Source: Candidatus Gastranaerophilales bacterium
Lineage (GTDB): Bacteria > Cyanobacteriota > Vampirovibrionia > Gastranaerophilales > Gastranaerophilaceae
Assembly: GCA_905236775.1 (NCBI GenBank)
Contig: CAJOOM010000115.1
Span: 1 to 37,492, forward strand
Direction: 5' to 3'
DNA: 37,492 bases
Of the stretch, positions 1-37,492 are shown in pieces; positions within the stretch are counted from its first letter, which is position 1, and each line of letters opens with the position of its first letter. Below the pieces are notes generated by a model, which was not told where the DNA came from, did no database searches, and saw only the letters and a list, made by a program, of their open reading frames with translations. The translations under genes and the position numbers were made by a program.

Positions 1-93
1 GAAACGAACAAGTGCTTTAGCACAGTGAGTGACAGGCTAGAGCAGGAGGAAATCCAAGACAAAATTTTAATTTTTCCGCAAGCTCATTATTAA
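1..93 (+). CDS. Possible C-terminal fragment of a CDS entering from the left (…LEQEEIQDKILIFPQAHY*)
   Basis: Frame 1 is open from base 1 to TAA at 91-93; the other + frames close early. Only 30 codons, so weak. Confidence 0.35.
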   Translation, partial: ETNKCFSTVSDRLEQEEIQDKILIFPQAHY

Positions 94-9989: not shown

Positions 9990-10102
9990 TTATCCCCCTC
10001 AATAAGCTTGTCTTTGTTTGTATGTAATTAAACAACAACTTGTAAAAGTATCCTACAATTGCATTGTACCATAAATACAGAAAATCTACAAAGATTTATT
10101 AT

Positions 10103-10261
10103 AGAAATTGCAGAAAAAATTAAAATTTTTCCTGCAATTTCTGTGGAACGGTTTTAAGCTGGTCTACGTGCTATTCCGCACCTAGACCAGCTTTCACACA
10201 CACTTTAAAATCGGATTTGAAAAACCTCAAAATTTGTCAATTTTTGGGTTTTTCCACATCC
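10103..10261 (+). repeat. Three-hairpin intergenic element, copy A
   Basis: Hairpin 0: AGAAATTGCAG.AAAAA / TTTTTcCTGCAATTTCT (10103-10142). GAACGGTTT 10146-10154. Hairpin 1: AAGCTGGTCTA c GTGC [TATTCC] GCAC c TAGACCAGCTT (10156-10193). Hairpin 2: GGAT tt GAAAAACCTCAAAATT [TGTC] AATTTTTGGGTTTTTC cac ATCC (10213-10261). Second copy at 37354-37492. Confidence 0.85.
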
Positions 10262-10266
10262 TTATA

Positions 10267-33443: not shown

Positions 33444-33691
33444 ATCACCTTATTTTTAATCATAAAAATAACTACTCTGCCTATCGTTATTTTATATCAT
33501 ATCTTTTCTTCTTAGCTCCTCTATATTAATGAAATTCTATAGAGAAAATATTTGAAATATTCGGCAAATACAATTAAATAAGCCATTCATCTTAAATTAT
33601 ATCATACAGATTCGATACGACAAAATATTTACAAATATATTTACATAGTAAGTGTCCTTTAGATTTTTTCCGCACACTCCTTGAGAATCCC

Positions 33692-37301: not shown

Positions 37302-37353
37302 GAATAATATTTATTTTATGGCAAAATTTCATTTTTTCAAAAATTTTAGGTGA

Positions 37354-37492
37354 GGATGCGGAAAAAGTCTGAAAAATGACAATTTTTCGACTTTTTCAAA
37401 TCCGGCCTAAAGTGTGTGAAACTCAGGTCGTGTGCGGGATAGCACACAACCTGAGTTGAAACCGTTCTATGGAGATTGCGAGAAAAATTTTA
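37354..37492 (-). repeat. Multi-hairpin intergenic element, copy B (truncated by the window end)
   Basis: Minus strand: …taaaatttttctCGCAATctccatagaacggttt, hairpin 1 AACTCAGGTtGTGTGC[TATCCC]GCACACgACCTGAGTT (37420-37457), spacer TTCACACACTTTA, hairpin 2 GAAAAAGTCGAAAAAT[TGTC]ATTTTTCaGACTTTTTC (37361-37397) enclosed by GGAT/ATCC. Confidence 0.8.

Follow-up and report, generated by a model that had tools for sequence, protein, structure and literature searches.

A MITE-like element with covarying hairpins, dispersed among the Gastranaerophilales

Introduction

The gap between murG and gyrB in a contig of a Candidatus Gastranaerophilales bacterium, one of the gut relatives of cyanobacteria, carries three consecutive hairpins, and the same unit recurs at the far end of the window (the whole stretch of 37,492 nucleotides analysed here). 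What kind of element is this, how does it move, and why do its stems differ between copies yet stay paired? The original prediction, made from the letters of the window alone, read the unit as a folded nucleic acid under selection, and considered a fixed cis leader less likely than a mobile element or an independent structured RNA. The results described here point to an element of a known kind, a MITE, dispersed to dozens of places in this gut bacterium and its relatives and unusual in its internal covarying hairpin.

Copies of the element in the window

The two copies lie where they had been predicted. Copy A, in the gyrB-murG gap, was described at 10103-10261 on the forward strand; homology across the family sets its limits at 10104-10263, and it is annotated here as 10103-10263. 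All its parts are given on the forward strand. Hairpin 0 (10103-10142) holds the left terminal inverted repeat, and the conserved linker GAACGGTTTT (10146-10155) joins it to hairpin 1 (10156-10193), a hypervariable self-complementary stem with the conserved apex GTGC-TATTCC-GCAC. Hairpin 2 (10213-10261) has the loop TTGTCA and the right terminus. The flanks TTAT (10099-10102) and TTAT (10262-10265) may be a target duplication, an uncertain one since they are shifted by 1-2 bases relative to the canonical ends.

Copy B (37352-37492, reverse strand, model positions 17-157; hairpin 1 at 37420-37457, reverse strand) ends at the contig end, which cuts it and leaves its first hairpin incomplete. The conserved blocks listed for the pair are present, and the stems differ and still pair. 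Both copies fold much more strongly than their dinucleotide shuffles, with z -9.4 (copy A) and z -6.7 (copy B). The neighbouring genes were confirmed as gyrB, murG and a MEMO-type (MEMO/AmmeMemoRadiSam protein) gene, and copy A is indeed opposed to both murG and gyrB.

A third copy (1-85, reverse strand), cut by the contig start, still has its left terminus (71-85) together with some of hairpin 0, and is broken up by a nested insert beginning GTCTTGGATT. Both contig termini fall inside element copies, this one at the start and copy B at the right. A solitary right-terminus remnant, ending TTTTTCCGCACACTC, lies at about 33660-33679 on the forward strand.

Dispersal of the family

Copies A and B are members of a family of elements of about 157 bp that extends across the Gastranaerophilales. 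Used as a BLAST query against its own genome, copy A matched 46 places. The covariance model that had been suggested as a check was built from 33 copies and gave further copies in both the genome and its relatives, with the element in 57 of 286 genomes taken from across the order and in 19 of 50 genera, at from 1 to at least 10 copies per genome. The repeat is thus not confined to the pair on which the original prediction was based. When 84,980 species genomes were scanned by pattern, 44 stretches came up: where the organism is named, it is Gastranaerophilales, Melainabacteria or cyanobacterium; the others belong to MAGs, and those of them with a stated source come from horse faeces, goat gut or sheep rumen. 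The phage and plasmid records searched gave no match to the element, and one of three scans of viral contigs gave a lone contig with one copy.

Models specific for the ends matched the own genome 70 times (left end) and 34 times (right end), some of the 70 being readings of both strands of the palindromic left end. Further contigs of this genome likewise end inside element copies. Since fragmented MAGs break in these repeats, the copies can be counted only approximately, and an autonomous one may be missing from the assemblies; the many contigs that end inside copies make the element a likely reason why the assemblies of these MAGs break. Rfam gave no match above the gathering score, the best sub-threshold families being implausible eukaryotic ones, which rules out a known Rfam RNA family, one of the outcomes that would have refuted the original prediction.

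The element inserts with 4-bp target duplications

Both ends of the element are inverted repeats GAGNNTGCGGAAAAA. With at most 1 mismatch, this terminal pattern occurs 117 times in the own genome, compared with 4 for the reversed control. Identical 4-bp flanks were present at 53 of 117 distinct insertions (mean 2.6, maximum 9 in shuffles), and duplication lengths of at least 6 bp were in no excess over shuffles in the same set; an early sample had 4-bp duplications at 21 of 36 copies. More than half of the copies are without a duplication at the model ends. The duplicated tetranucleotides are varied and AT-rich, and the reconstructed target has a weak symmetric preference, with C about 2 bases to the left of the duplication and G about 2 to the right.

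Sister genomes were compared for empty sites, as had been proposed. One syntenic pair within the genus was obtained, in which L204 is occupied, with TCAA repeats on both sides, and L270 is empty; this single case is one of presence and absence, not a base-exact junction, because the surrounding intergenic DNA has diverged. For copy A an empty site was not obtainable, since the relatives carry gyrB and murG on separate contigs and the site is non-syntenic there. Two derivatives of about 80 bp (L022 and L027) have the same internal deletion and, by eye, their own 4-bp duplications, CTTA and AAAC respectively; the same picture would result if the deletion had followed insertion. Other shrunken derivatives are a single terminal hairpin of 36 bp (L166) and a derivative of 54 bp (L167, about 956-1009).

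The insertions are mostly intergenic, only 4 of 105 copies being contained in ORFs of at least 100 aa. Among the gene gaps that carry the element, divergent ones are mildly over-represented and convergent ones under-represented. The orientation relative to genes is unbiased (23 co-directional, 17 opposed), which argues against a fixed role as terminator or leader. Together with the terminal inverted repeats, the 4-bp duplications and the empty site, this bears out the preference for a mobile, MITE-like repeat over a fixed cis leader. Terminal inverted repeats, a duplication of fixed length, small non-coding dispersed copies and one case of an occupied and an empty syntenic site are features of a MITE, a non-autonomous DNA transposon, and we are nearly certain that the element is one.

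The hairpins are kept by compensatory change

In the alignment of 33 copies, 96.6% of the pair cells are paired, both partners have changed in 20 of the 53 pairs, and double-change cells number 162, compared with 52 in shuffles. Because the copies are related, a tree-aware test was used, a home-made analogue of R-scape whose null was columns simulated on a tree of 108 elements, each evolving on its own and with as many changes as had been observed. Significance was reached by 18 of the 53 structural pairs, compared with 0.05 per null alignment: 11 of 15 in hairpin 1, 6 of 21 in hairpin 2 and 1 of 14 in hairpin 0. When all 11,935 column pairs were tested, four were significant and all four were structural. 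Double-compensatory changes on branches numbered 143, compared with 5-16 when the partners were slid. Pairing is therefore kept well beyond what relatedness explains, and the compensatory stem changes around fixed loops that the original prediction saw in two copies persist as covariation when more sequences are included.

Pairing was also better in copies with a duplication (0.956) than in copies without (0.916; p = 6.5e-5, in a test that treats related copies as independent), suggesting that the folds are a property of the mobile lineage. The difference fits a structure that is needed while the element is mobile and is then lost. The hairpins of MITEs are usually seen as a side effect of their inverted repeats. 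In the present family a hairpin that lies internally, outside those repeats, has kept its pairing in many genera despite rapid change, and pairing is best where the duplications are intact, so the fold itself appears to matter. Such rapid sequence change, with arms that nearly always match, is unusual for a parasite of this kind. We consider it probable that the hairpins are under selection.

Hairpin 1 is hypervariable and self-complementary

Hairpin 1 is internal and at a distance from the terminal repeats; its apex is fixed, as are the linkers on either side of the hairpin. Its outer stem exists in 72 distinct forms, most of them well paired. Between 30 disjoint pairs of close copies the stem of hairpin 1 differed by 0.107 per site, compared with 0.037 elsewhere in the element (2.9 times faster), and 31 of the 35 stem pairs changed on both arms were complementary in both copies (about 4 expected).

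Could the arms be kept complementary without any selection? A mutational process, either intrastrand template switching in palindromes or recombination that swaps whole hairpin-1 modules, would account for the high rate, and the arms of hairpin 1 do look as if they change jointly, which is what either process would produce. On the tree, changes of both arms on the same branch (about 84) equal all single-arm changes together (about 84), and single changes do not favour the G.U wobble. Two near-identical copies of the own genome (L004 and L005) have 2 differences in 119 positions outside hairpin 1 and 5 compensated pairs inside it. However, 10 distinct, fully paired (Watson-Crick) outer stems have kept a T.G wobble at position 7 of hairpin 1, and another 10 have kept a C.C mismatch at position 5; these argue against whole-arm copying, which would erase mismatches. 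Module swapping, for its part, moves variants around but creates no new self-complementary ones, and there are the 72 stems to explain. Pairing by mutation alone is in our judgement improbable.

The same hairpin bears on a second alternative, a mobile element with a functional structured RNA, in which the transcript would be selected for control of mobility or for host regulation and transposition would merely spread it. Variable stems with invariant linkers and loops are an RNA-like signature, the covariation is significant, and the T.G at position 7 pairs on one strand only. On the other hand, A.C outnumbers G.U among the single changes of hairpin 1, and this preference runs in different directions in different hairpins, so that the evidence on the strand is mixed; the unbiased insertion relative to genes, the absence of an Rfam match and the decay of pairing in copies without a duplication also speak against the RNA. 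We regard this alternative as unlikely, if less so than pairing by mutation alone.

Other repeats nest in the element. A second small hairpin family, GCGGATTNTCGGYAGAG...CCAAGMAA, of about 70-90 bp, lies within the apex of hairpin 1 or the stem of hairpin 2 at L185, L007, L012, L023, L037, L182, L194 and L278, with two tandem units in L007; a free copy lies outside the element in L111 (about 2265-2360), and the family has no obvious target duplication. A third repeat type, beginning GGGGTAAATA, was seen inside element hairpins (L185, L169, L139 and L142), with a free copy at 680-745 of the window.

Search for the mobilising transposase

No copy with coding capacity was found, loci with a left end only included, and the search for an autonomous partner with the same ends, by pairing left and right ends or through left-end-only copies, gave merely decayed or nested copies. 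The transposase searches spanned few families (DDE_Tnp_1, DDE_Tnp_1_2, rve and Y1), in assemblies of which many contigs break in repeats. In the own genome, DDE_Tnp_1 and DDE_Tnp_1_2 (PF01609, PF13586) were undetected, and the lone rve-domain gene is part of an IS3-type element with different ends. In a different genome (G151), a copy (L113) and the start of a Mu-type transposase gene (Mu-transpos_C) are about 50 bp apart, and that gene is possibly adjoined by a MuB-like ATPase.

The original prediction had leaned towards REP- or IS200/IS605-type logic, in which a Y1 transposase (TnpA or TnpA-REP) moves the element as single-stranded DNA. The subterminal position of the hairpins agrees with this, as does the presence of Y1 genes, scattered through the order, in 98 of 286 genomes. 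The target duplications largely refute it, since IS200/IS605- and REP-type elements leave none. Moreover, the Y1 or TnpA_REP gene that was to be looked for in this high-copy genome was not detected (no match to PF01797 in G000, a 93.7% complete assembly). Nor does Y1 track the element within the genus, where by our own count from two lists it occurs in 16 of the 24 genomes that carry the element and in 6 of the 8 that lack it, and no left end lies near the Y1 genes sampled. The 4-bp duplications and the distribution of Y1 exclude this mode in practice, and we give it very little chance.

A small tyrosine recombinase adjoins some copies

Eight genomes have one common single-copy context without a target duplication (L105-L107, L109-L112 and L115). 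In seven of the eight (L106, L107, L109-L112 and L115) the element adjoins a tyrosine recombinase of about 180 aa, and the eighth, L105, has recombinase fragments only; the L110 locus was covered in part. On the opposite side there is mostly a HipB-like or HipBA gene, with HipA confirmed in L109. This context spans several genera and two families, and in G176 the element adjoins another such recombinase. These neighbours would suit an attC-like recombination site of the small recombinase. Against this, the 17 recombinase loci scanned have the element at the original one only, several high-copy genomes are without a close relative of the recombinase, and random 4-bp target duplications do not fit, which makes an attC-like site extremely improbable. 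The recombinase as general mobiliser is made unlikely by the same lack of linkage (1 of 17 loci; several high-copy genomes without a close relative).

Discussion

The reading that we favour, and hold to be reasonably likely as a whole, is that of a MITE moved in trans, whose hairpins are selected on the mobile lineage through recognition of the folded strand. The inverted repeat at each end forms a hairpin of its own, and between the two stands the third hairpin with its invariant apex and linkers. The mobilising transposase would act in trans and probably with DDE chemistry. Selection on the mobile lineage would keep the hairpins, most likely because one of the steps of multiplication involves recognition of a folded strand, and after insertion they would decay. 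As the folded molecule, DNA seems to us somewhat the better candidate, with RNA a rather weaker one. A more far-reaching possibility, which we put forward as speculative, is a cut-and-paste transposon that needs a folded strand to multiply, or that passes via a step in which one hairpin arm is rewritten from the other, so that its spread generates new self-complementary stems. If so, it would represent a mode of transposition or copying that unites DDE-type target duplication with hairpin recognition.

Comparison with known elements

Bacterial MITEs, including Nezha and Correia, have been reviewed, and the element shares with them its short length, lack of coding sequence, terminal inverted repeats, target duplications, AT-rich intergenic targets and high degree of pairing (PMC10969869). 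That review calls stable stem-loops typical of prokaryotic MITEs, and its main text nowhere uses the word 'compensatory' (PMC10969869). Unlike these MITEs, the present element has three separate hairpins upheld by compensatory change, an internal hairpin that is hypervariable yet self-complementary around a fixed apex and between fixed linkers, and no identified parent IS.

Integron attC sites likewise vary in sequence and conserve structure, but the element inserts whole, with 4-bp duplications, and has no association with an integron integrase. With REP sequences, TnpA-REP and the IS200/IS605 family it shares hairpins that are scattered between genes and have defined loops, mismatches and linkers (PMC8266576); it differs in its target duplications and terminal inverted repeats, in that no GTAG-hairpin unit was noted, and in an own genome without detected Y1. 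In architecture, compared by description only, it resembles BOX of Streptococcus pneumoniae, a modular composite with conserved ends, variable middle units, which may be in tandem (two in L007 of the present family), predicted stem-loops and insertion by other repeats (PMC3049150). It differs from BOX in that its 4-bp duplications are clear, its covariation has been tested, and its nested units are a separate hairpin family.
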